This document shows positions 39,022-63,117 of a stretch of DNA of 64,000 nucleotides, one piece after another (the stretch's first letter is position 1; each line of letters begins with the position of its first letter). Under the pieces are notes generated by a model that did no database searches, had not been told where the DNA came from, and saw only the letters and a list, made by a program, of their open reading frames with translations. Position numbers and translations under genes: made by a program. Source of the DNA: Pantoea phytobeneficialis. Lineage in GTDB: Bacteria; Pseudomonadota; Gammaproteobacteria; Enterobacterales; Enterobacteriaceae. Location of the stretch: the NCBI RefSeq assembly GCF_009728735.1, contig NZ_CP024636.1:3705120-3769119 (forward strand). The letters are read 5' to 3'.

Positions 39022-39169
39022 TCCTGGTTAAAGGTGTGCTCAGGGTGGCAGCTCAGGCAGAGTGGTGCATGTGATAGAAGTTTGCTGATCGCTCAGCGGG
39101 CAGTTACTCTTGAGCTGTAACTCTGATAACCCGTGGCACTACAGGCAACCCGTTGAAAATGAGGGAACG

Positions 39170-39838
39170 ATGATGATTGCAGGAACCGCAACGAAAGAGC
39201 CGGGCAGATATTACACCTTCCAGTCGCCGCTACCGGCTGATGTCTTTTTTGAACTCCGCCCCCGGACGTTGCCACACAATGCGCAACCCGTGCTGGATGA
39301 AACCAGCGGCATGTGTATCGGCTACTCAGTCGCCCAGGCACCGGGGCTGTGGCAGATTTACGATACACAGGGCCATTTTCTGCGCCTGGAAGAGGCACCG
39401 CTTGAAACACCACTGATAGATCCAACCGATATTGCGCTTATCGCTTTTGGTGTCTTCCGTATTTTTCGTGCGGGTCGCGCATTGTTTGAAGCCGGTACGC
39501 GCACGGCTGTCAGCGCGAAACTCAGCCAGGCGACAATTATGTTTCTGCGCGCCCGGTTAAAAACCGGGTTATCTGCCCGTAATCTCAAAATGACTGAAAC
39601 AGCCGCCCGGCATATGTACGAACCGGGGCGCTATGTTCCCTTACATATTCAGGAAAAAGCCATCCGTTACGGCAGGCGTATGGCTGATCCCCGTAACGGG
39701 GAAGGGATGTTCCGCTATGAAACTGAGATGTATAAACTGAATCGCAAGAGAAACGTCACCGAGTATAAGAAGTACACTCTTGAGGTTGTGGTGCGGGAGT
39801 CAGACTGGACGATTACCCATTTTAAATACTTTGATTAA
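39170..39838 (+). CDS. Polymorphic-toxin-like protein (phage cargo)
   Basis: The 222-residue protein is read against the tail operon in the slot where P2 carries Z/fun. Residues 1-85 are not recognised. A pre-toxin-like hydrophobic/helical stretch follows (PTDIALIAFGVFRIFRAGRALFEAG), then a C-terminal domain from about residue 150 (AARHMYEPGRYVPLHIQ ... RNGEGMFRYETEMYK ... YTLEVVVRESDWTITHFKYF). This pattern of one early His, a GxxxxxDP turn and alternating strands resembles BECR-fold RNase toxins of CDI and Rhs systems; the family was not verified. The small gene directly downstream fits an immunity protein. The start at 39170 or 39173 follows GAGGG. There is no signal peptide. Confidence 0.65.
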   Translation: MMIAGTATKEPGRYYTFQSPLPADVFFELRPRTLPHNAQPVLDETSGMCIGYSVAQAPGLWQIYDTQGHFLRLEEAPLETPLIDPTDIALIAFGVFRIFRAGRALFEAGTRTAVSAKLSQATIMFLRARLKTGLSARNLKMTETAARHMYEPGRYVPLHIQEKAIRYGRRMADPRNGEGMFRYETEMYKLNRKRNVTEYKKYTLEVVVRESDWTITHFKYFD

Positions 39839-39855
39839 CCGGCAGGAAAGTACGC

Positions 39856-40296
39856 ATGTTTGATATCAGAAATGAAGAATTCGTTTTCGCGGTCTCTCCC
39901 TTTGAGCGAGTCGTGGATGACGAAGCCGATCCGGTTAATCACCTCTGGGACTGGATTAAGTCCTTCGTGGAGTTTTCCGTCAGCGGAGTGAAGGTCCAGT
40001 TTCAAACCGAATTTACTGTTGGTGAGCTTAAAGTTCTGCGTGAACACTTTGCTGCATATTATGAAGCGGTAAAGGTTCAGCGGGAGATTGAACCTTTCAA
40101 TTTTCGTAGCGACCTCAACCAGTTGAATATGTTGCTAAGGAAAGTGAAGGGTGATGACATTGTGATGATTGAATATGTACTACGCCCGGAAGCTCATGCC
40201 GATAGTGTTCAGGTAAAAGGTGAACTCGGCATTAATGAAAGCTATTTCCCGGAAATCCTTAAGCGGCTGGATGAAATGATTGCCTGGCCGGAATAA
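39856..40296 (+). CDS. Probable immunity protein of the adjacent toxin-like gene
   Basis: The 146-residue acidic protein is encoded 17 bases after the toxin-like gene and ends before a strong terminator, so the two form a small operon. Its mix of charged strands and helices (FVEFSVSGVKVQFQTEFTVGELKVLREHFAAYYEAV ... RLDEMIAWPE, no cysteine or catalytic motif) is like WapI-type immunity proteins of polymorphic toxins. GGCAGGAAAG precedes the ATG. Function is inferred mainly from the pairing. Confidence 0.6.
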   Translation: MFDIRNEEFVFAVSPFERVVDDEADPVNHLWDWIKSFVEFSVSGVKVQFQTEFTVGELKVLREHFAAYYEAVKVQREIEPFNFRSDLNQLNMLLRKVKGDDIVMIEYVLRPEAHADSVQVKGELGINESYFPEILKRLDEMIAWPE

Positions 40297-44473: not shown

Positions 44474-44544
44474 GCTTCAATTTTCGTTGTTTGATGCCTG
44501 AAAACAATCACAGTCGGTATGGTGGTAAACTAACAAACATCATC

Positions 44545-45477
44545 ATGTTAAATTTCAAAAGGCAGCCAGAATTGAACATAGAAGAAAAAAAGTTCACATA
44601 TCCAGAGCAATTGCTAGACTTCCTTTCCAGCTGGAATAACAAGCTTGATGGATATATATTCAGAGGGCATTCAAAAGAAAGTTATGAGTTACTTCCGTCT
44701 GTTCTAAGGGAGGAAAATAGATTTTTCGCCGATCACTCATGGCCCAAAAGTTTAGGGGCAGATTATGAGATTACTCAAATTCAATCTGAATTTATCTTGT
44801 TAAGAGAATTTTATCAAAAAGCTGACAGGTATGGATTGAAAGTGCCTTCATCAGATTTCTTGAGAAAAAATCTGGCATCGGAATATGATTTAACATTCGC
44901 GACTCAGCCTGAAGGGGAAACATATTGGATTCCTTCTTACATGCAGGAAATTGCAGCTTTAGCACAGCATTACGGTTTACCGACCAGGTTATTAGACTGG
45001 ACTCATGATCCATTTGTTGCAGCATTTTTTGCGCTAAAGGGGGCTTTGAACAATGAAGAAAATATCGTTATTTGGTGCTTAAACAAAGAGCATTTATCAA
45101 CACATGCGATGCTATCAAAACATAGCTCCTTGAAATTTGTTACCCCGCCATATTACGAAAATCCACATTTGAACGCTCAGAAGGGAATATTTACACATAT
45201 CGAAACGGCCATGCAATTTCGGTCAGTTGACGGCGGCTCTATGCTTGTTGATCGCCGACCATTAGATGTTAGGTTGGCTGACATTTTCAATAAGGGTGCT
45301 TTGAATAATGTAAATATCCTTACAAAGCTGATATTTCCAGCTAATTTAGCACTTGAAACTTTTAGTTTGCTGGAGCGACATGGTTATGGTGAAGCCAGAA
45401 TTTTTCCTGGCTATGGCGGCGTGGCAAACGAAGTTCTCCATTCGCGCAAAATGAAAGCTCAATCAACGGATAAATAA
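44545..45477 (+). CDS. FRG-domain protein (phage cargo)
   Basis: The roughly 310-residue protein has an FRG domain: YIFRGHSKESYELLPSVLR near residue 35 gives the domain its name, and AALAQHYGLPTRLLDWTHDP with VAAFFAL about 110 residues later is its second conserved block. FRG proteins are frequent in phages, prophages and defence islands, but no reaction is established that I can cite. It is read against the late genes and fills the gap between V and S, which are adjacent in P2. Base composition is clearly more AT-rich than the flanks. The start is uncertain: 44494 (ATG) is also in frame, and neither has a good ribosome-binding site. It overlaps S tail to tail by 19 bases. Confidence 0.8.
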   Translation: MLNFKRQPELNIEEKKFTYPEQLLDFLSSWNNKLDGYIFRGHSKESYELLPSVLREENRFFADHSWPKSLGADYEITQIQSEFILLREFYQKADRYGLKVPSSDFLRKNLASEYDLTFATQPEGETYWIPSYMQEIAALAQHYGLPTRLLDWTHDPFVAAFFALKGALNNEENIVIWCLNKEHLSTHAMLSKHSSLKFVTPPYYENPHLNAQKGIFTHIETAMQFRSVDGGSMLVDRRPLDVRLADIFNKGALNNVNILTKLIFPANLALETFSLLERHGYGEARIFPGYGGVANEVLHSRKMKAQSTDK

Positions 45478-51191: not shown

Positions 51192-52955
51192 ATGAACATG
51201 ACACCCGGCACCACCATCAGCGATCCGCGCCGTCAGGCCGCACTGCTTTACTGGCAGGGGTATTCCGTGCGCCAGATAGCGGAGACGCTCGGACAGAAAA
51301 CACCAACCGTGCAGAGCTGGAAACTCCGCGACGCCTGGGAAGATGTTGCGCCCATCAGCCGCGTGGAATTCAGTCTTGAGGCGCGGCTGACTCAGCTCAT
51401 CCTCAAAGACGTGAAGGAAGGAAGGGATTACAAAGAGATAGACCTGCTCGGGCGACAGATTGAACGGCTGGCCCGCGTTGAACGTTACCGGGGCAGCGGT
51501 AACGAGGCGGATCTTAATCCGAACGTGCGCAACCGCAACCGGGGCGAACGTCAGCCGGTTATCAAGAATATTTTCAGCGACGAGCAGACCGACAAACTGA
51601 CCGGCCTGTTTATAGATGGCTGCTTTGAGTACCAGCTCAACTGGCATAAAGCCGGGCTGGCGCACCGTATCCGCAACATCCTCAAATCCCGCCAGATTGG
51701 TGCAACGTTCTACTTTGCCCGCGAGGCATTGCTTGATGCGCTGACTACCGGTCGCAACCAGATTTTCCTGTCAGCCAGCAAGGCGCAGGCGCACGTCTTC
51801 AAAAACTACATCATCGATTTTGCCCGCTCGGTGGATGTGGACCTGAAAGGCGATCCGATTGTGCTGCCGAACAGTGCCCGCCTGATTTTTCTCGGCACCA
51901 ACGTGCGCACCGCACAGAGCTACACCGGCAATCTGTACCTGGATGAATATTTCTGGATACCGAAATTCCAGGAACTGCGCAAAGTTGCCAGCGGCATGTC
52001 GCTGCACAAGAAATGGCGCACGACGTATTTCTCCACTCCGTCGAGCCTGTCGCACAGCGCGTACCCGTTCTGGTCCGGGGAGCTGTTCAATAAGGGACGC
52101 CGCAACAAAGATGACCGCATTGAAATTGACCTGTCACATTCGCACCTGGCGAAAGGCGCGCTGTGCGGTGACGGCCAGTGGCGGCAGATTGTCACGGTTG
52201 AGGATGCACTGACGGGCGGCTGCAACCTGTTCGACATCGACCAGCTGCAACTCGAATACAGCCCGGCTGAGTATCAGAACCTGCTGATGTGTGAATTTGT
52301 CGACGACGAGGCCAGCGTGTTTCCGTTCGCCGAGTTGCAGGGCTGCATGGTGGACAGCCTGGAGGAGTGGACCGACTTTAACCCGTATGCGCTGCGCCCG
52401 TTCGACTACCGCCCGGTGTGGATTGGGTACGATCCCTCGCACACCGGCGACAGCGCAGGCTGTGCCGTTATCGCGCCACCGCTGGTTGCCGGTGGCAAAT
52501 TCCGCGTGCTGGAGCGCCACCAGTGGCGCGGCATGGACTTTGCCGCGCAGGCGCAGTCGATTAAGGAGCTGACGGAAAAATACACCGTTGAATACATCGG
52601 CATTGATGCGACCGGCATCGGCCAGGGTGTGTTTCAGCTGGTCCGCCAGTTCTACCCGGCCGCAAGGGAAATCCGTTACACCCCCGAGGTGAAAACCGCA
52701 ATGGTGCTGAAGGCGAAAGACACCATCAGCAACGGGCGACTGGAATACGACGCGGGACAGACCGACATCACCCAATCCTTTATGGCTATCCGCAAAACCA
52801 TGACCGCCAGCGGCAACCGTTCTACCTACGAGGCCAGCCGCAGCGAAGACGCCAGCCACGCCGACGTCGCCTGGGCCATCATGCACGCACTGCTAAACGA
52901 ACCGCTTACCGCAGCCAGCGGCGGCGTAAATCCTTCTTTCATGGAATTTTACTGA
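51192..52955 (+). CDS. P: Terminase large subunit (ATPase) gpP
   Basis: gpP is the packaging motor ATPase. The 587-residue protein has an N-terminal HTH (ALLYWQGYSVRQIAETLGQ), a Walker A-like region LKSRQIGATFYFAREALLD, Walker B NLYLDEYFWI, and a C-terminal nuclease-type fold starting VWIGYDPSHTGDSAGCAVI. The start could be 51192 or 51198. Its stop overlaps the Q start (TGATG), so P and Q are coupled, both read away from O as in P2. Confidence 0.95.
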   Translation: MNMTPGTTISDPRRQAALLYWQGYSVRQIAETLGQKTPTVQSWKLRDAWEDVAPISRVEFSLEARLTQLILKDVKEGRDYKEIDLLGRQIERLARVERYRGSGNEADLNPNVRNRNRGERQPVIKNIFSDEQTDKLTGLFIDGCFEYQLNWHKAGLAHRIRNILKSRQIGATFYFAREALLDALTTGRNQIFLSASKAQAHVFKNYIIDFARSVDVDLKGDPIVLPNSARLIFLGTNVRTAQSYTGNLYLDEYFWIPKFQELRKVASGMSLHKKWRTTYFSTPSSLSHSAYPFWSGELFNKGRRNKDDRIEIDLSHSHLAKGALCGDGQWRQIVTVEDALTGGCNLFDIDQLQLEYSPAEYQNLLMCEFVDDEASVFPFAELQGCMVDSLEEWTDFNPYALRPFDYRPVWIGYDPSHTGDSAGCAVIAPPLVAGGKFRVLERHQWRGMDFAAQAQSIKELTEKYTVEYIGIDATGIGQGVFQLVRQFYPAAREIRYTPEVKTAMVLKAKDTISNGRLEYDAGQTDITQSFMAIRKTMTASGNRSTYEASRSEDASHADVAWAIMHALLNEPLTAASGGVNPSFMEFY

Positions 52956-53977
52956 TGAGCAAACGCAAAGGCCGCAAGGCATTTACCGCACCCGCCCACG
53001 CCGCACCGGTTGCATCGCAGCCGGTTGAGGCGTTCACCTTTGGCGATCCCACGCCGGTGATGGATAAGCGCGACATTCTGGATTATGCCGAATGCATCCA
53101 TAACGGCCGCTGGTATGAGCCGCCGGTCAGCTTTCACGGGCTGGCGAAAAGCCTGCGCTCGGCGGTGCATCACAGCTCACCGCTGTATGTGAAGCGCAAC
53201 ATTCTTGCCTCAACTTTTATCCCGCATCCGCTGTTGAGTCAGCAGGAATTCAGCAAGTTTGCGCTTGATTATCTGGTGTTTGGTAATGCCTTTGCCGAAC
53301 TGCGCCGCAACGCGCTCGGCCAGCCACTGCGACTGGAAACCTCTCCGGCCAAATATACGCGACGCGGGGTTGAAGATGGAGTCTACTGGTTTATTAACGA
53401 ATGGAAGGACGCACACCAGTTTGAAGCCGGGCAGGTGTTTCACCTTATCGAGCCGGATATCAATCAGGAGCTGTACGGCCTGCCGGAATATCTCAGCGCG
53501 CTTAACTCCGCCTGGCTGAATGAGTCGGCCACGCTCTTCCGCCGCAAGTATTACCAGAACGGCGCGCACGCCGGTTACATCCTGTACATGACCGACGCGG
53601 CGCAGAGCAGCAGCGATATCGACCGTATGCGTCAGGCGATGCGTGATACAAAAGGCTTAGGCAATTTTCGGAATCTGTTTATGTATGCGCCTAACGGCAA
53701 GCCGGATGGAATCAAAATTTTGCCGCTGAGTGAGGTGGCAACACGGGATGATTTTTTCAATATCAAGAAAGCGAGTCGAGATGATTTGTTGAGTGCGCAT
53801 CGTGTGCCGCCGCAGATGATGGGTATCATCCCGGATAATTCGGGTGGGTTTGGTGATGCGGTTAAGGCGGCGCAGGTGTTTGTTAGGAATGAGCTTACTC
53901 CTTTGCAAGAAAGGTTTAAGGAAATTAATTACAAGCTGAACTTGGAAGCTATAAAGTTCAAAGAGTATACATTCTGA
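52955..53977 (+). CDS. Q: Portal protein gpQ
   Basis: gpQ forms the dodecameric portal at the DNA entry vertex. The 340-residue protein has VEAFTFGDPTPVMDKRDILDYAEC, NGRWYEPPVSFHGLAKSLRSAVHHSSPLYVKRN and RVPPQMMGIIPDNSGGFGDAVKAAQVF, all typical of P2 portals. The last 100 codons are visibly less GC-rich than the rest, grading into the AT-rich cargo beyond the stop. Confidence 0.95.
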   Translation: MSKRKGRKAFTAPAHAAPVASQPVEAFTFGDPTPVMDKRDILDYAECIHNGRWYEPPVSFHGLAKSLRSAVHHSSPLYVKRNILASTFIPHPLLSQQEFSKFALDYLVFGNAFAELRRNALGQPLRLETSPAKYTRRGVEDGVYWFINEWKDAHQFEAGQVFHLIEPDINQELYGLPEYLSALNSAWLNESATLFRRKYYQNGAHAGYILYMTDAAQSSSDIDRMRQAMRDTKGLGNFRNLFMYAPNGKPDGIKILPLSEVATRDDFFNIKKASRDDLLSAHRVPPQMMGIIPDNSGGFGDAVKAAQVFVRNELTPLQERFKEINYKLNLEAIKFKEYTF

Positions 53978-53978
53978 C

Positions 53979-54013
53979 AGATAACCTAAAGCATTTATTG
54001 CTTTAGGTTATCT
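53979..54013. terminator. Perfect 15-bp hairpin between portal gene and kinase operon
   Basis: AGATAACCTAAAGCA-TTTAT-TGCTTTAGGTTATCT is an uninterrupted 15-bp stem with a 5-base loop just after the Q stop and before the convergent kinase stop. No T-run follows on either strand, so it is a transcription barrier or mRNA-stabilising hairpin rather than a classic terminator. Confidence 0.7.
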
Positions 54014-54022
54014 GAATACTCA

Positions 54023-55132
54023 TTAGCTTTTTAATATCAGGATGGTTGCGCATCTTCCGCGAGGATGTCCTGGGAAAGTATTGAAACAAACTTCCTCACC
54101 AATATCGAATGATGACTTTCCATATACCTCCGAAGAATGATAGAACCATTCTTCATTTGTTTTTACATCTCTTATGAAACCAGTGGATTCAAATGGCACG
54201 CCATATGATAATATGACGCCATTGCTTCTGGTGTCATTGGAATAGCATATTTCATTGAAGCTGGTTAAAATATTGTCTGCGGTTGGCCGTGCTTTGGGAT
54301 CAGCTCTCAAACACTCTTTTATTAAATTCCATATTTCATCCTCAAGAGCTTCAACTGATTTATGTTTTCCAAAGGTTGCCGGTTTAGTTAATGTAAATGC
54401 ACCATCCTGATATCTCGCTACATCTCTGATAGCTCGACGGCCAGTACCAAACGGTGGGGTTCCACTCACCAAGTGATATGCAATGCAGCCTAGGGCCCAG
54501 ATGTCCATAGGTTTGCCAGCATTTTTCCAATCATCCCAACATTCTGGAGCCATATATGGGACAGCGCCAAGCAATGTTTGAGATGTTGTCAGGGTGTTAT
54601 TATCTTTTTCAAAAAGCTCTATCTCTTTTGCGATCTCATTTTCTGCAAGTTTAGAGATCCCAAAATCAGTAAGTTTGACTTTGGATAGATTAAAGTCATT
54701 TGATACCATTATGTTACTGGGTTTTAAGTCTCGGTGACATATACCATTGCTATGCGCTTCAACGAGCGATTTAGTAAGGTTCTTAATTACATGCGAAGCA
54801 AGGTGTGGGTCAAGGTAATAAAAGTGTTGTTCTAATTTTTTTCCTAAATCCATTCCGTCTATGAACTCTTCAATCATAAATGTCAAATGATCATCTTCAT
54901 AGTAATCCAGTGTTGAGGCAACATTAGAATGATGAATCTTAGCTCCCATTTCTGCTCCGCGTCTGAATCGACGGTCGCTTATACCTTGTTTTGGTGTTTT
55001 TAAAACAACGAATCTATCTAGAACTTTATCATGACAGTAATAAACCTCCTGCATCCCACCAGCGGCGATGTATTCGATTATGACATATCTGTCAATTAAA
55101 ACTGCACCATTATTAAATTTTGTGCTTATCAT
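54023..55132 (-). CDS. Ser/Thr protein kinase with C-terminal cold-shock-like domain
   Basis: The 369-residue protein has a complete eukaryotic-type kinase domain (about 15-295): glycine loop IAAGGMQEVYY, lysine K45 in VVLKTPK, catalytic loop HRDLKPSN (D135), DFGISK (D156), and MAPECWDDW. The last 65 residues (GVILSYG ... TGFIRD ... EEWFYHSSEV ... DIGEEVCFNTFPGHPRGRCATI) follow the cold-shock/OB-fold pattern, with GFI, FYHSS and G-V-F in the right order, so the protein may bind RNA or ssDNA. The start at 55132 overlaps the stop of the upstream kinase (ATGA). It is cytoplasmic with no membrane segment. Likely phage cargo; substrate unknown. Confidence 0.88.
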   Translation of the reverse strand: MISTKFNNGAVLIDRYVIIEYIAAGGMQEVYYCHDKVLDRFVVLKTPKQGISDRRFRRGAEMGAKIHHSNVASTLDYYEDDHLTFMIEEFIDGMDLGKKLEQHFYYLDPHLASHVIKNLTKSLVEAHSNGICHRDLKPSNIMVSNDFNLSKVKLTDFGISKLAENEIAKEIELFEKDNNTLTTSQTLLGAVPYMAPECWDDWKNAGKPMDIWALGCIAYHLVSGTPPFGTGRRAIRDVARYQDGAFTLTKPATFGKHKSVEALEDEIWNLIKECLRADPKARPTADNILTSFNEICYSNDTRSNGVILSYGVPFESTGFIRDVKTNEEWFYHSSEVYGKSSFDIGEEVCFNTFPGHPRGRCATILILKS

Positions 55133-56196
55133 ATAACTAGTTCCGGATGTGATGATAAGAAAGTGACGAACCTGCGGCCAGAACCAAATTCCGGGCGTCC
55201 AAAAGTAATCAGGCAAGCATTAGGGAGGCAGTCCCCAATCTGGGCAGGTGTGTTATTTATATAAACTTCTCCAGAAACGGCGCTAATTATAAAGTCAAAA
55301 CCATCATAATTAACTATTATTTCACCATGACTGAGTTTTATACGAACACCGGTTTTTGAATGAGATAGCTCATAAATACTGCTGTTCTTTTCCACAAACA
55401 AACCTTTGTGTTTATTATATAACAAATGTTTGTAGAATGTTTCTGTTAATCTTTTTGAGCTGGGTCTTAAACTAGGGTTTGAATTTAAACAAGAATCAAT
55501 CGTGTTTATTATTTCATCATTTACTTTGCCCGTGAGTAATCTACCAATTGTAGTGTATGGTTTAGATCTCATAGGTGGTTTTTCAAGTAATGCCGGGCTG
55601 AAGTTACGAGTGGTAGTAACTAAATTCCAAGCACAAATCCCAAAGGCGTAGATGTCCATCTCAGTTGTGATTTTGGCATTGCTAACATATAACTCTGGAG
55701 CAGCGTATATGATTGTCCCTCTATTCGATTTTGTATAATAATCTTCGTTTGTAGATGATAATCCAAAATCATAGAGTTTTAAAACGCCCGTTTCAGAAGA
55801 CTTTATGTTTTCAAGCTTTAGGTCGCGATGCACTATTCCGGAATTATGTAGGTCATACAAAGCATGGCTAATTTGATATAAAATTATCAGGAAGGAATAA
55901 GAGTCGAAAGGTGTTTCATTGTGGTAATTTAAATAATCTCGACCTTTTAGGAACTCTATAATTATACCTTCAAGCAATCCTGATTGTGGGTTTCTAATTA
56001 AGTCGTATATTTCAATCACATGTCGCGATCTGGCTTTAGATAACGCTTGTATTTCATTTATTAATTGATCATTATCCTGAGGATTGCTCATTCTTTTAAA
56101 AAGGACTTCTCTATCCAAGTAGGTATCTTTGACTAACTGAAGATTACCAAAACCACCAGAAAAAGTCTGTCCTTTGATAAGCTCATACCTGTTCAA
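55129..56196 (-). CDS. Ser/Thr protein kinase with beta-rich (FHA-like?) C-terminus
   Basis: The 355-residue protein has all kinase essentials: glycine loop FSGGFGNLQLV, K34 (VLFKRM), E48, catalytic HRDLKLENI (D125), DFGLSS (D143), and YAAPELY. The kinase lobe ends near 260. The remaining 90 residues are predicted strands (IKLSHGEIIVNYDGFDFII; EVYINNTPAQIGDC) and could be a divergent FHA phosphopeptide-binding domain, but the canonical GR and SxxH residues are not clear, so this is tentative. It lies 28 bases after the PP2C gene and is translationally coupled to the second kinase, giving one operon. Confidence 0.88.
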   Translation of the reverse strand: MNRYELIKGQTFSGGFGNLQLVKDTYLDREVLFKRMSNPQDNDQLINEIQALSKARSRHVIEIYDLIRNPQSGLLEGIIIEFLKGRDYLNYHNETPFDSYSFLIILYQISHALYDLHNSGIVHRDLKLENIKSSETGVLKLYDFGLSSTNEDYYTKSNRGTIIYAAPELYVSNAKITTEMDIYAFGICAWNLVTTTRNFSPALLEKPPMRSKPYTTIGRLLTGKVNDEIINTIDSCLNSNPSLRPSSKRLTETFYKHLLYNKHKGLFVEKNSSIYELSHSKTGVRIKLSHGEIIVNYDGFDFIISAVSGEVYINNTPAQIGDCLPNACLITFGRPEFGSGRRFVTFLSSHPELVI

Positions 56197-56224
56197 TTTT
56201 CAATCCTTCTTGGGTGTGATATGT

Positions 56225-57343
56225 TTAGTGGTCATTTTTATGTTTATTATCAAGATTGAATTCCTCAATTATTATCTCTTCTTGTATGTTCAAGTTTTTT
56301 TCATTGATATTTTTCTTCGTGGTAGGTGTTGTAATCTTTTTGTTCGATTTTTTATAATTGGCTTTTTTTGCTTCATTGGAGGGAACTGTTACTGGTGATA
56401 TGAATTTGGCTTTGAAATCGCCACACCATAAAGAAAGAGTATTGGAATAAACACTCAATCTGCTGGATTCAATTTCTTGTTGTAACGTAATTAGTGATGG
56501 AATGGTTATTATTGATGTGTTGTCACCACCGCCAAGCCAAGTTGATGACACAACAACTCTCCTGGCAACTTCATGATTTGGGGAGTTGATTATTATTTTT
56601 TTAAAGGCACTTTCCGATTCTTTCCATGCGCCATCACTAGCTAGAATAACGCCCTCTGGAAAGTTCTCTTTATGGTAAAAATTGAAGTTTAGATCATATT
56701 CAGATCTGTTTTTTTCGCCCAAGGCTTGACTCAATGTCCCACCTAATTTCATTTCTCTTAAGGCCGATGCATCTTTTAATTTGAGATGAGCTAATTCATT
56801 TTCTAATGTGTCATCTATACTTACTTGTTTGAGTTGTTTTGTTATAGGTTGCCATGAAAAAACTCTACTATCCCCAATGTTTATGGAAATAATATCCCCG
56901 GTAGAGGAAGCAAGAAATAAGCTTAACGTTGTGCTTCCTCTGCCTGATAAAATTTTTCTGATAAGGTTATCTGTTTCCTGAATAATTGTAGTCAGCTGTT
57001 CTTTGAGAGGCGTTTTGCTATGGTTTTTGCTAAGTTTAGTAAGAATAGAACTTATTGCTATCGATGCCGCAATATCCCCAAACTCAGTTCCCCCGACACC
57101 GTCACACAAAATGGCGCAAAAATAATATTCTTTATTCGTGAAATTAACAATGCATAAGGCTAATCTATCTTCATTACGCTTCCTAACTAGGCCGGGATGT
57201 GTAGAAAAACCAAATTTGTATTTATCATCTTTAACAGTAAAACCCTGATTGAATGGTGCGTTTATTATTTCATTAAATATTTCCGCATGAAAAGGATCGT
57301 TTATGATTTCTAAAATATTTTTGTTGTCTATCAACATATTCAT
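56225..57343 (-). CDS. PP2C-family Ser/Thr phosphatase
   Basis: The protein (372 residues from 57343) has every PP2C metal-site motif: HPGLVRKRNEDRLAL, ILCDGVGGTEFGD, GRGSTTLSLFL, SINIGDSRVFSW, LASDGAWKES, and GGGDNTSII. Residues 300-372 form a Lys/Asn/Glu-rich low-complexity tail. The frame is open upstream to 57592, but that part crosses the cos site and changes to GC-rich sequence, so a start at 57343 (or 57337) is preferred. It heads a phosphatase-kinase-kinase operon, and should reverse what the kinases do. AT-rich like its partners. Confidence 0.88.
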   Translation of the reverse strand: MNMLIDNKNILEIINDPFHAEIFNEIINAPFNQGFTVKDDKYKFGFSTHPGLVRKRNEDRLALCIVNFTNKEYYFCAILCDGVGGTEFGDIAASIAISSILTKLSKNHSKTPLKEQLTTIIQETDNLIRKILSGRGSTTLSLFLASSTGDIISINIGDSRVFSWQPITKQLKQVSIDDTLENELAHLKLKDASALREMKLGGTLSQALGEKNRSEYDLNFNFYHKENFPEGVILASDGAWKESESAFKKIIINSPNHEVARRVVVSSTWLGGGDNTSIITIPSLITLQQEIESSRLSVYSNTLSLWCGDFKAKFISPVTVPSNEAKKANYKKSNKKITTPTTKKNINEKNLNIQEEIIIEEFNLDNKHKNDH

Positions 57344-57475
57344 GCCCGTAAGTTTCTTAATTTCGCGAAATGGTTTAGTTGGAATTACATTTTGTACAAC
57401 CAATTTTAATAATTTAAACCTGCAACTCAGCAAAATCAAGAATATATTATTGAAATGAATTGTCATTGGCGCGCA

Positions 57476-57494
57476 ATGCTTTCCCCGCCACGCC
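57476..57494. other. Phage cos site
   Basis: On the minus strand GGCGTGGCGGGGAAAGCAT, followed by TGCGCGCC, matches the 19-base P2 cohesive end GGCGAGGCGGGGAAAGCAC (followed by TGCGCGC) at all but two positions, as I remember P2. It lies between gene A and the packaging genes, as expected. It places the kinase operon at the Q-side end of the packaged genome. A cluster of CATGC motifs lies at 57515-57614. Confidence 0.85.
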
Positions 57495-57629
57495 TGCCCG
57501 CTTTGTGCACCGCTTTTCATGCATATGCATGTTCCACCCAAAACCGCGCCAGCCATGAGGGCAGGGACGATTAGCGATCCTGTTCGGATCATGCAATCTC
57601 ATGCACGCACATGCGTTCTACTGCACCAT

Positions 57630-57964: not shown

Positions 57965-60196
57965 TTATTGAACATCACTACCATTTTGATGGCACGCGGC
58001 CAATGCCTGGAATCGTTGCAGGGCAGTTGAGGCTTTTCTCCTGTCGCGGAACAGATGACCACTGGTTCCACTCCAGAAAACCTGATCACCAACCTTGAGT
58101 CTGTGTCCCATCATCATGCGTGTGGCTTCCCCCTCGGACAGAGTCAGCCGTGAGACATCATAAAAAGTCTCTTTTAACTTCTCGCGTTGTTCCCGATAGC
58201 GACCGTTTACCGGAGCAGGTCGAGGCTTTGGCGGTTTTACTGGTGCACTTTCGTACAATCTTTTCAGAATCCGCTTTCTCTCAGCCCTGGTTGGCGGTCG
58301 TGAGAAATCAACAGGGAACTCATCAAGTGAAGGCTCCGTACAGTTATTGACAGAACTCCGAGAGGGCGCAGACGCGCCCTGAAGGTCAACGGCCAAATCA
58401 ACGGCACGTTTGGGGACGATCTTCCATTGCGCCAGACGGGTTAAGATTGGCGTGTCTGCACCAACTTCAGTTGCAAAAACGCCTTTGATACGCACGGTTT
58501 CCTCGCCGTATTCGTTTACGTCATCGCTCGGCTGATACCAGGTGCGCACTGCTAAATCATCACGACGGACGAACGGCCCGCCCTGAGCGTTGACATAGCC
58601 AGCCCAATCACCAGCATCGGCTGCATCGTGCGCAGCAGCAAATTCAACACTCAGACCGTTAGCGGTTTCGCTGTCAGCCATGCGGCGCAGCTCGCGATAA
58701 ACCGTTACCGGCGCGCCACCCACAAACTGAAACTGGCGGATGTGCCAGCGTGCCGCCCAGGCGGAAACGGCTGACGCTGTCTCTTTAAGCTCTTTGCCGC
58801 TTTCATCGTCCAGCTCGCCATCGAGTGCATAGCCGTCGATATTTTTAGAGATGTATTTCGCCACGTATCCGGTGGCGCTGCCTTTCTCCGGGTCGATAGC
58901 TTCGGCGTGAAAACGCGCTCTGCGAGCCTTTTCGCTTTTCAGCTCTTTGTTATCTTCCTGCCAGGCGTAATCGCTCATAACTTCACGCACGCGATCGACA
59001 TTTTCAGGAAGCATAAACATCAGCATATGCCAGTGAGGGGTCGCATCATGATGAGGTTCAGCAACACGTATGCCAAAGATACGGATTTCTTCACGATGCA
59101 GCTTTGCGCGGATTTTCTGCCAGAGGTTGCAGAGGTAGCGTTGCGTATCCGTCGGGCTGGCTCCGTTCCATTTACGATTACGATGGCCGGTCTTAATAGT
59201 GGCGTGGTAACGGGCTGGTGCGGTGAGGGTATAGAACTCGCCGATAAAGCCCATCTCGTTGCAGATATTTTCAAAGCCCCGGATACGCGTCATCAACTCG
59301 CAGCGGCGAATAGCGGGATTAGCCACACTGCCGTCGTATTTCTCAATCAGGCTAATTCGGTTGCCTTCATCGTCTTCTAACTCCATTCCTTTGAGAAATT
59401 CGCGCGTGCGGCGTTTCTGCTCACGCCATTCCGCAACCGTCATATTGCTGGCATATGGGGTGTGCTTTTTGCTGACGTTAGCGAGTGCGATCTGCAAGTG
59501 CTCGCGCCAGGCAGACGCAACACGACGCAGTCGGCCTTTCCACCATTTTTCAGTCTTCATGCGCATGATGGCCGGGGTAACTTCTTCCGGGTCAAATAAA
59601 CGTGATGTGACTTTATCCCACAGCGGCGGTGTCTGATTCAGTTCGCGGGTGATGGTCGCGGCGGTCATATAAACGCGATGCGTGTATTTGTAATCTGTCT
59701 CGTCGCTACCCTGGCTATGAGTCTGTACCAGTTCGGCCATAATAAAATTAGCCACGTCACCAGCCAGCAGATCAACATCAGCACGCGCCATATCAGGCAG
59801 ACGGTTAAAGCGCTTCATCAATTCCCACAGCCCACCGCCAGCGCGTGCTGCACCCGCTCTTTCTCCGGCATTTTCGGCCAGCAGGTTAAAGGTGGCTGTC
59901 TTCATTTCGTCGAGTTGGTACTTTGCGTTTACGCATTCAACACGCGGCAATGTGCGCTCAACAAAAGTTTTTGTTAAGTACGCATTGGCGCGGGCTGTTC
60001 CCTGTGCTTTCTCCAGCTCGCTGGCACGACGTTTAACATCGAGTTGGATCAGCTTCGGCTGCTGTTCGAGCAGCTCCTGCGCATGTGCTAAAGCCGCAAT
60101 CAACTGACTGCGGCTGTGTATTTGCTCATACGTAGGATAAGGGCTGGCAATGGCTTCCCGTGGAGCATTCCACGGGTAAGCGAATTCCTGATGCAT
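57965..60196 (-). CDS. A: Replication initiation endonuclease gpA
   Basis: gpA nicks the phage origin, located inside its own gene in P2, and starts rolling-circle replication. The 743-residue protein has the HUH metal motif in HHDATPHWHMLMF near residue 390 and paired catalytic tyrosines in GYVAKYISKN near 455, as in P2 gpA. The N-terminal 300 residues match the phage GPA family (REWREQKRRTREFLKGMELED). It is the last large gene of the early operon. Confidence 0.96.
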   Translation of the reverse strand: MHQEFAYPWNAPREAIASPYPTYEQIHSRSQLIAALAHAQELLEQQPKLIQLDVKRRASELEKAQGTARANAYLTKTFVERTLPRVECVNAKYQLDEMKTATFNLLAENAGERAGAARAGGGLWELMKRFNRLPDMARADVDLLAGDVANFIMAELVQTHSQGSDETDYKYTHRVYMTAATITRELNQTPPLWDKVTSRLFDPEEVTPAIMRMKTEKWWKGRLRRVASAWREHLQIALANVSKKHTPYASNMTVAEWREQKRRTREFLKGMELEDDEGNRISLIEKYDGSVANPAIRRCELMTRIRGFENICNEMGFIGEFYTLTAPARYHATIKTGHRNRKWNGASPTDTQRYLCNLWQKIRAKLHREEIRIFGIRVAEPHHDATPHWHMLMFMLPENVDRVREVMSDYAWQEDNKELKSEKARRARFHAEAIDPEKGSATGYVAKYISKNIDGYALDGELDDESGKELKETASAVSAWAARWHIRQFQFVGGAPVTVYRELRRMADSETANGLSVEFAAAHDAADAGDWAGYVNAQGGPFVRRDDLAVRTWYQPSDDVNEYGEETVRIKGVFATEVGADTPILTRLAQWKIVPKRAVDLAVDLQGASAPSRSSVNNCTEPSLDEFPVDFSRPPTRAERKRILKRLYESAPVKPPKPRPAPVNGRYREQREKLKETFYDVSRLTLSEGEATRMMMGHRLKVGDQVFWSGTSGHLFRDRRKASTALQRFQALAACHQNGSDVQ

Positions 60197-61761: not shown

Positions 61762-62163
61762 TTAGGGTTTGATGTAGCGACATTTGATTGCTTGTTGGCG
61801 ATTCTTTTCGCGCCAGGCAGCAACATTGATAAGCGGATTTCCATGTTTGGTCATGGTGGTTTCTACTACTTTACCGGTCTTACGGTTGGTGCGGTTTTGC
61901 GTATAGGTGAAGGATGGGGTGGGTGCCAGCAGGACAACACCGTTTGCGATCCATTTCTCTAGCACAGACAGGCTGATACGGTTTGCGGTGGCGAAGTCAT
62001 GCTTGGACATTGTCGGGGATGTTGCCAGCGTGACAGCTTTGTTTACAGCGTCGTTAACCGCTTCGCTGATTGCTGGCATTAAAATGGCGGCAACATTGGC
62101 AATAAAATCTTGAGATTGCACTAAGTCAAATGCGTTCTGACTGTTTGCATTTTCAGTATGCAT
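61762..62163 (-). CDS. Cox/Apl-like regulator
   Basis: This is the first gene of the rightward-early (minus strand) operon, divergent from CI, the place of cox (P2) or apl (186), which control the lytic switch and help excision. The 133-residue protein has a helical N-terminal extension and an HTH-like segment (MSKHDFATANRISLSVLEKWIANGVVLL) followed by VETTMTKHGNPLINVAAWREK, similar to Cox-type winged HTH proteins. AAGGAG precedes the ATG. With int far away on the phage map, excisionase function is inferred only from position. Confidence 0.75.
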   Translation of the reverse strand: MHTENANSQNAFDLVQSQDFIANVAAILMPAISEAVNDAVNKAVTLATSPTMSKHDFATANRISLSVLEKWIANGVVLLAPTPSFTYTQNRTNRKTGKVVETTMTKHGNPLINVAAWREKNRQQAIKCRYIKP

Positions 62164-62277
62164 AACGCAGTATCTCCTTGTGGTCGTTTTGTTCTACGGT
62201 GTTTCATGTGGTGTGAATGCACTTTAGATCGTAAAGACGATTTGGTAAATGATTATTTATCACTTATTGGTGTTTTT
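62164..62277. promoter_or_regulatory. CI / Cox divergent switch region
   Basis: This 114-bp spacer must hold the lysogenic and lytic promoters. Small inverted repeats are visible (TCGT-AAAG-ACGA at about 62228-62239 and GTAAAT...ATTTATCAC at 62241-62260), which may be CI or Cox operators. CI has a weak ribosome-binding site here. Exact operators cannot be fixed from one sequence. Confidence 0.6.
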
Positions 62278-63117
62278 ATGATTGAAGAGAAGGGCGGTAG
62301 TGCTCAGATTCTCGAAAGACTCATGTCTTCTTATGGGGTTAATACTCAAAAAGATCTTGCATCCGCGCTTGAAATCCCGCCAAACAATATCAGCGGTTGG
62401 ACACAAAGAGACAGCGTTCCAGGCAATGCCATTATCAAATGTGCGTTGGATACCGGCGTCGATCTTCGATGGTTGGTGACTGGTGAGCTTGCAAATGCAA
62501 ACTATGCTGGCGTTGGTCAGTTAGTAGGAGGTGATCTTTACAAACAGATTATCTCTAACGGCGGTAAGCCAGTGTTACGTCGTATCATGGATGCTTATGG
62601 CTTTACGATGCAAAAGCAGCTTTGTGAGCTGTTAGGTATTTCATCAGGTACTGTAAGCACTTGGGTGCGCAGAAATCATTTTCCCGGTGAGGTCGTTGTA
62701 ACTTGCGCACTTGATACCGGGGTTTCCCTGCAATGGTTAGCAACAGGGAAGGGGTTACAACAAAAAGAGAACGCTCAACTAAGCGTTAGCTCTTCAATTC
62801 CGCGTAAAAACTTAGTCGCTGGAATCTTGCAAGATGCCGGATACTGGGAAATCAATTTAAGTTTTATCGCCCACACAATCAGTGAACCTATTTTTATTTC
62901 GAGTAACACAGGTGCCTGGATTGTCGATATGAGCGTGGCTGGTATAAGCAACGGCCGATGGTTACTTGGTGTTGATGATAAATATGACATCTATAATATA
63001 ACACTTCTTCCTGGTAGAAGGATTAGCGTGACAAATAAAGGAAATACTTTTTCTTGTGGTGTTGATGAGGTGACTGCGGTAGGTAAGGTTGTAATAGCAA
63101 TGGACTTTGTTTTTTGA
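62278..63117 (+). CDS. cI: CI repressor (186 type) with duplicated DNA-binding domain
   Basis: CI keeps the prophage silent. From the ATG at 62278 it has 279 residues. Two consecutive CI-type HTH domains are visible: ILERLMSSYGVNTQKDLASALEI ... CALDTGVDLRWLVTGE (about 8-70), and RRIMDAYGFTMQKQLCELLGI ... CALDTGVSLQWLATGKG (about 98-160). The C-terminal domain (SFIAHTISEPIFISSNTGAW ... LPGRRISVTNKGNTFSCGVDEV) resembles the oligomerisation domain of 186 CI, which has only one HTH. No LexA-type self-cleavage site is seen, so induction probably needs an antirepressor. The 40-codon upstream extension is rejected. Confidence 0.88.
   Translation: MIEEKGGSAQILERLMSSYGVNTQKDLASALEIPPNNISGWTQRDSVPGNAIIKCALDTGVDLRWLVTGELANANYAGVGQLVGGDLYKQIISNGGKPVLRRIMDAYGFTMQKQLCELLGISSGTVSTWVRRNHFPGEVVVTCALDTGVSLQWLATGKGLQQKENAQLSVSSSIPRKNLVAGILQDAGYWEINLSFIAHTISEPIFISSNTGAWIVDMSVAGISNGRWLLGVDDKYDIYNITLLPGRRISVTNKGNTFSCGVDEVTAVGKVVIAMDFVF

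Follow-up and report, generated by a model that had tools for sequence, protein, structure and literature searches.

The gene set and its place in the prophage

All positions given here refer to the window, the whole stretch of 64,000 nucleotides of Pantoea phytobeneficialis DNA (contig NZ_CP024636.1) that was analysed. It carries a P2-like prophage in which a PP2C phosphatase gene is followed by two Ser/Thr kinase genes, all on the minus strand, from 57343 down to 54023, with portal, terminase and gpA genes as neighbours (PHROGs). The features of the locus, whose gene names are those of the KKP module discussed below, are the following:

52955-53977, plus strand: portal gene (gpQ), bounding the hotspot on one side (phrog_68 portal, 8.9e-167)
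53978-54016, no strand assigned: hairpin, probably a two-way terminator, between the converging portal and pfkA genes
54023-55132, minus strand: pfkA-like Ser/Thr kinase (kinase 2) with a C-terminal cold-shock domain, 369 aa
54026-54253, minus strand: cold-shock-type C-terminal domain of PfkA with the GFI motif (profile A8 against PDB)
55129-56196, minus strand: pfkB-like Ser/Thr kinase (kinase 1), 355 aa, TTG start
55132-55410, minus strand: mostly beta C-terminal domain of PfkB, at the position of the KKP FHA domain (AF2 strands within residues 265-348)
56225-57343, minus strand: pfpC-like PP2C phosphatase, proposed antitoxin, 372 aa, start at 57343 or 57337
56258-56284, minus strand: PfpC tail motif, proposed docking peptide; window version EEIIIEE, residues 354-362
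57466-57553, no strand assigned: cos region of the prophage, matching Erwinia phage ENT90 at 84% over 88 bases
57965-60196, minus strand: replication endonuclease gene (gpA), bounding the hotspot on the other side (phrog_91, nicking at origin of replication, 1e-266)

The three frames are free of internal stops and measure 1119 bp (PP2C), 1068 bp (kinase 1, PfkB-like) and 1110 bp (kinase 2, PfkA-like). A 28-base gap separates the PP2C stop from the start of kinase 1, and the two kinase genes overlap by ATGA. Their G+C contents are, in the same order, 34.3%, 35.7% and 38.9%, whereas the remainder of the prophage stretch (32814-62163) has 56.1%. The phosphatase matches Pfam PP2C_2 (3.1e-7) and NCBIfam Stp1_PP2C_phos (1.8e-25, under the cut-off of that family), and both kinases match Pfam Pkinase (7.7e-36 for PfkB and 6.9e-44 for PfkA); residues 12-353 of PfkB moreover match the serine-threonine kinase family phrog_2361 (3e-54). 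The HRD and DFG residues of PfkA (52 aligned rows) and PfkB (51 rows) and the PP2C aspartates (32 rows) do not vary in the alignments, each made of the window protein and a hand-made selection from 120 listed matches. The sequence-only reading had described an AT-rich minus-strand operon with this overlap and this spacing, encoding a PP2C phosphatase with its metal motifs and two complete kinases, and the frames, the Pfam matches, the invariant residues and the base composition all bear it out. Since the three products match database proteins (1331, 507 and 195 at E <= 0.001, general kinases included) and the same gene order is found elsewhere, the three genes are not a chance set of open reading frames.

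The start of the PP2C gene is ambiguous between 57343 and 57337, and seven out of seven relatives, the window's own entry set aside, start at or after the alignment place of 57337. No stop interrupts the frame upstream, across the cos region, as far as an ATG at 57592; from there the gene would measure 1368 bp, and the database entry of the window phosphatase itself (P0241, 443 aa) begins inside this extension, 57343-57592. The nearest promoter-like site upstream of PP2C (57466-57439) shows 9 of 12 consensus bases. At the other end of the set, the hairpin has a folding energy of -24.8 kcal/mol (z -11.1) if read on the plus strand and of -22.9 kcal/mol (z -9.4) on the minus strand; it is absent from the list given by the consensus terminator scan.

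The 88 bases at 57466-57553, which we take to be cos, match ENT90 at the same place in that phage, in the interval between portal and gpA. The match to ENT90 in the portal region stops at window position 53928 and resumes at 57466, with 3537 bases between these points here and 253 in ENT90, so that the module is missing from ENT90 at the corresponding site. Three Yersinia P2-like phages hold other small genes in their gpA-portal interval.

This interval is known as a P2 hotspot, gpA-gpQ, that carries many anti-phage genes (Rousset et al. 2022, PMC9122126); E. coli genomes supplied 18,150 loci, among which 1,650 gene arrangements were described. The module thus occupies, beside cos, the slot that holds old, tin and others in P2-like phages (PMC9122126), in agreement with the earlier placing of the set between cos and the portal gene, in the defence-cargo slot of P2-like phages. 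The passages of PMC9122126 consulted on the hotspot name other systems and contain no kinase-kinase-phosphatase set.

Probable assignment to the KKP module

The sequence-only reading was meant to fall if the set proved to be an already named system, and a literature search leads to precisely such a system, the KKP module. KKP was defined as a PP2C gene followed by two kinase genes, each of 900-1300 bp, in the order PfpC-PfkB-PfkA (Guo et al. 2024, PMC11341870), with a cold-shock domain (CSD) bearing a GFI/A motif on PfkA and an FHA domain on PfkB; the authors suggest that the CSD-kinase may be a defining feature, and more than 90% of their cases lie in a prophage or mobile element. With the KKP of Pf6 and of other prophages, as published, the window module shares gene order, orientation and gene sizes (all three genes fall inside the 900-1300 bp filter), the CSD with GFI on the last kinase and the prophage location; the two kinases also have HRD and DFG, and the phosphatase has the PP2C motifs. 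It differs in that FHA is not detected by sequence in PfkB, and in that PfkB has GGF where the KKP paper gives GGM for both kinases. The host and the phage are also different, and the likeness is judged from the published description on one side and from the genes alone on the other. We conclude that the window module is very probably KKP, a prophage-borne tripartite toxin-antitoxin and anti-phage system. It is as such a member of an already named system at a known site, and its defence role is not new; what it adds is a further host with a KKP copy, placed in the P2 defence hotspot.

The domain evidence is clearest for PfkA, in which GGM, HRD, DFG and GFI are all present. Its cold-shock domain carries the exact GFI motif, as TGFIRD. 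Against Pfam CSD the window protein reaches an E-value of 0.053 and 13.8 of 27 bits, under the Pfam cut-off, and the CSD is matched in 26 of the 52 members of the PfkA alignment (E <= 0.1). Furthermore, profile A8, built from seven PfkA C-termini, retrieves cold-shock chains from PDB (best 1.4e-8; CspB 4e-5), and GFI stands within the last 75 residues of 57 of the 120 listed PfkA relatives.

PfkB contains HRD and DFG, and its GGF has counterparts in nearly all relatives listed, 116 out of 120 showing GG[FY]G. The AF2 model of the protein (mean pLDDT 90.8 over the whole model) gives it a confident, mostly beta C-terminal domain, in which sequence comparison did not detect FHA. FHA is absent among the 25 Pfam families listed, out of 26 matched by 51 members (E <= 1), and no FHA chain appears among the five PDB matches of profile A7 (E <= 10).

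The set was looked for elsewhere in 15 of 87 loci, namely two annotated regions, the 12 best of 80 genome loci (the 68 others, left out, are 26-35% identical) and one viral locus; the 15 include the sole viral-contig locus and a Klebsiella phage. All three genes stand in the same order in 14 of the 15, and the fifteenth is cut at a contig end; the co-occurrence that the sequence-only reading had proposed to look for is therefore found. Homologues of the window portal, terminase and gpA do not occur in the flanks of these 15 loci (tblastn, 1e-6), and neither these loci nor the four P2-like relatives examined show KKP at the same site. On plasmids, ten records match PfkA (E <= 1e-30), nine of them with PfkB adjoining, and the closest full set seen lies on a Pantoea anthophila plasmid (PfkA 83% and PfkB 78% identical), where a gene annotated as PP2C precedes the kinases. 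Among 50,697 phage records a single match covers at least 80% of PfkA, at 37% identity. PfkA is found in one of 60 relatives, the source genome itself (E <= 1e-40), and in two of 394 genomes of the order, the source genome and one other at 38% identity (E <= 1e-60); matching DNA occurs in 5 of 5426 E. coli genomes, over 20% of the query at 71.6% identity. The module is sporadic. A separate observation concerns an E. coli chromosome (L005, 9864-18802), where caspase-family, TIR-domain and relaxase genes are annotated next to a KKP set, in what looks like a mobile defence-like island.

Function and competing explanations

KKP is described as a tripartite toxin-antitoxin that blocks lytic phages in other bacteria (PMC11341870). 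According to the same paper, the kinases are toxic only together, each needing the other, PfpC neutralises them via its catalytic motifs, and four KKP modules from non-filamentous prophages gave phage defence in E. coli K-12. In E. coli the published T4 trigger is directed at the phosphatase, as Gp59 binds to PfpC and inhibits it (PMC11341870); degradation of PfpC has been attributed to the Pf4 protein RepG4 (cited in PMC13048266). By analogy, PfkB and PfkA of the window would jointly form the toxin, which would phosphorylate many proteins of the host and arrest its growth, and PfpC would be the antitoxin that counters their phosphorylation. Infection would lower PfpC activity and release the kinases, division would stop and the incoming phage would not be produced. 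What the window itself offers is the gene set, its order, most of the motifs and the site, whereas toxicity, neutralisation, trigger and phage range would carry over from experiments on homologues. The sequence-only reading had imagined a phosphorylation relay that senses infection and is held off by the PP2C; sensing and hold-off are upheld by the homologous KKP (PMC11341870), and the relay gives way to two kinases acting as a joint toxin. Its defence role and its PP2C hold-off thus appear right by homology.

Could the module serve mainly another purpose? Control of the lysogeny of Pf6 by KKP through MvaU has been shown in P. aeruginosa (PMC11341870, PMC13048266), and the main job of the set might accordingly be to control, via phosphorylated host silencers, the lysogeny of the prophage that carries it or of another one, with defence secondary. 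We consider this rather unlikely, as the four non-filamentous modules that defended E. coli (PMC11341870) speak against it, and as the genome holds a single match to the window portal (E <= 0.001), so that no P2-like partner was found. A co-resident P2-like prophage was therefore rejected as partner by this portal search. Other prophages are possible in the genome, since it has nine phage-integrase-family matches, one of them the window prophage's own.

A general, prophage-borne stress or survival signalling set of the host, rather than a defence system, is suggested by the prpZ cluster of Salmonella Typhi (prpZ-prkY-prkX), which has the same three-gene make-up, a PP2C and two tandem kinases (PMC11984733). 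This cluster was described through macrophage survival work, and its likeness to the window module is taken from its published description. A Salmonella enterica PfkB-like protein (P0131), presumably linked to prpZ, is 52% identical to the window PfkB. Such a role seems improbable for the window module, which occupies a phage defence hotspot (PMC9122126); moreover, a module tested in the KKP paper (PMC11341870) is, as we infer, prpZ itself. That the set is decayed or unexpressed cargo whose genes no longer work together, as the TTG start of PfkB, the 9/12 promoter-like site and the divergent PfpC tail motif of the window might suggest, is highly improbable in view of three intact frames with invariant HRD, DFG and PP2C residues and the ATGA overlap kept, and of the intact set on the Pantoea plasmid, with kinases 83% and 78% identical.

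Other named systems were considered besides KKP. In the TerY-P triad, a vWA (TerY) partner gene adjoins the kinase and the PP2C. Between portal and gpA there is no ORF of at least 100 aa besides the three genes, and the neighbours scanned with PHROGs are otherwise named or unknown, so that the triad was rejected; the sequence-only reading had noted the missing vWA partner, and its comparison with TerY is no longer needed. PADLOC (2023) labels the kinases as MAD6, PD-T4-6 and similar (best 25 of 33 and 25 of 34 matches) and leaves the PP2C unlabelled. PD-T4-6 and MADS, the best PADLOC matches of the kinases, were rejected as kinase-domain similarity. Indeed, PD-T4-6, the MADS MAD6 kinase and Stk2 have a Ser/Thr kinase domain in common with the window kinases, but MAD6 scores 111.4 of 460 bits against a window kinase, far under the NCBIfam cut-off, and Stk2 is, according to the KKP paper (PMC11341870), a single host-encoded kinase, unlike the window set. 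Automated defence annotation may thus misname a KKP module.

The C-terminal tail of PfpC

The PfpC relatives share a C-terminal peptide, approximately [RK]PK[IV]E[IV][ST][IT]D, whose end lies a median of 7 residues from the C-terminus. A first motif search had picked up the strand that closes the PP2C domain (W..D.K), and this part was removed before the second search. The tail set comprises 103 non-redundant relatives (117 usable of the 120 listed), the window entry included. The motif scores above 5 bits in 97 of the 103 tails and above 8 bits in 88, by a weight matrix trained on the same tails that it scores, and its log-likelihood ratio is 779, against 126-154 in 10 shuffles. By regular expression it is present in the last 30 residues of 41 of 53 representatives with less than 60% domain identity, where shuffled tails give a mean of 0.5 and a maximum of 4 in 1000 shuffles; at stricter domain identity it is kept in 21 of 29 (< 50%), 11 of 16 (< 45%) and 4 of 5 (< 40%). 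Earlier, looser expressions had matched 58 of 118 tails (shuffled mean 10.0) and 27 of 118 (shuffled mean 0.6). By eye, a version of the motif is seen in 11 of the 14 PfpC frames of the examined loci. Shared ancestry explains part of this signal, because the shuffles control for composition and not for descent.

The linker ahead of the motif is variable and basic on average (+0.10 per residue). Identity is 41% at the motif, 9-13% in the four preceding linker windows and 15% in the following one (82 of 120 tails, 73 non-redundant), but these windows were picked by the motif, which biases the 41% upward, and the shuffle tests are fairer. A second short element resembling QLxL was noticed by eye ahead of the motif in many of the relatives (P0241-P0360).

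The tail of the window PfpC, EEIIIEE, is a divergent version of the motif; it reaches 9.3 bits by the weight matrix and is among the 12 of 53 representatives that the regular expression misses. The AF2 model places a strand at residues 356-361, after a stretch (320-353) under pLDDT 50, and the block 351-360 averages 60, so that this predicted strand is only a hint. We tentatively propose, as a possibility that we hold to be less likely than not, that the peptide is a candidate docking element on a linker of about 50 residues, which would bind by strand addition to the two kinases or, in cis, to the phosphatase domain, and that phage triggers may free or destroy this tether. If this is true, KKP would have a second, non-catalytic layer of control, and the tail would give a direct handle on how the antitoxin holds to the toxin and on its phage-triggered release. 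The motif was not found in the portion of the KKP text consulted (PMC11341870), and a narrow literature search on related terms returned nothing on the PfpC tail.

Three observations concern genes elsewhere in the window. An FRG-domain gene (44491-45477; Pfam FRG, 3.5e-20) sits among the tail and baseplate genes of the prophage, is encoded on the strand opposite to theirs, and would be further cargo. Two genes of the tail region (39110-40296), the second with a WapI-like immunity domain (2.6e-6), are possibly an orphan toxin-immunity pair. Finally, the CI helix-turn-helix family matches two stretches in the CI-type repressor (62158-63117), whose DNA-binding domain is perhaps doubled.
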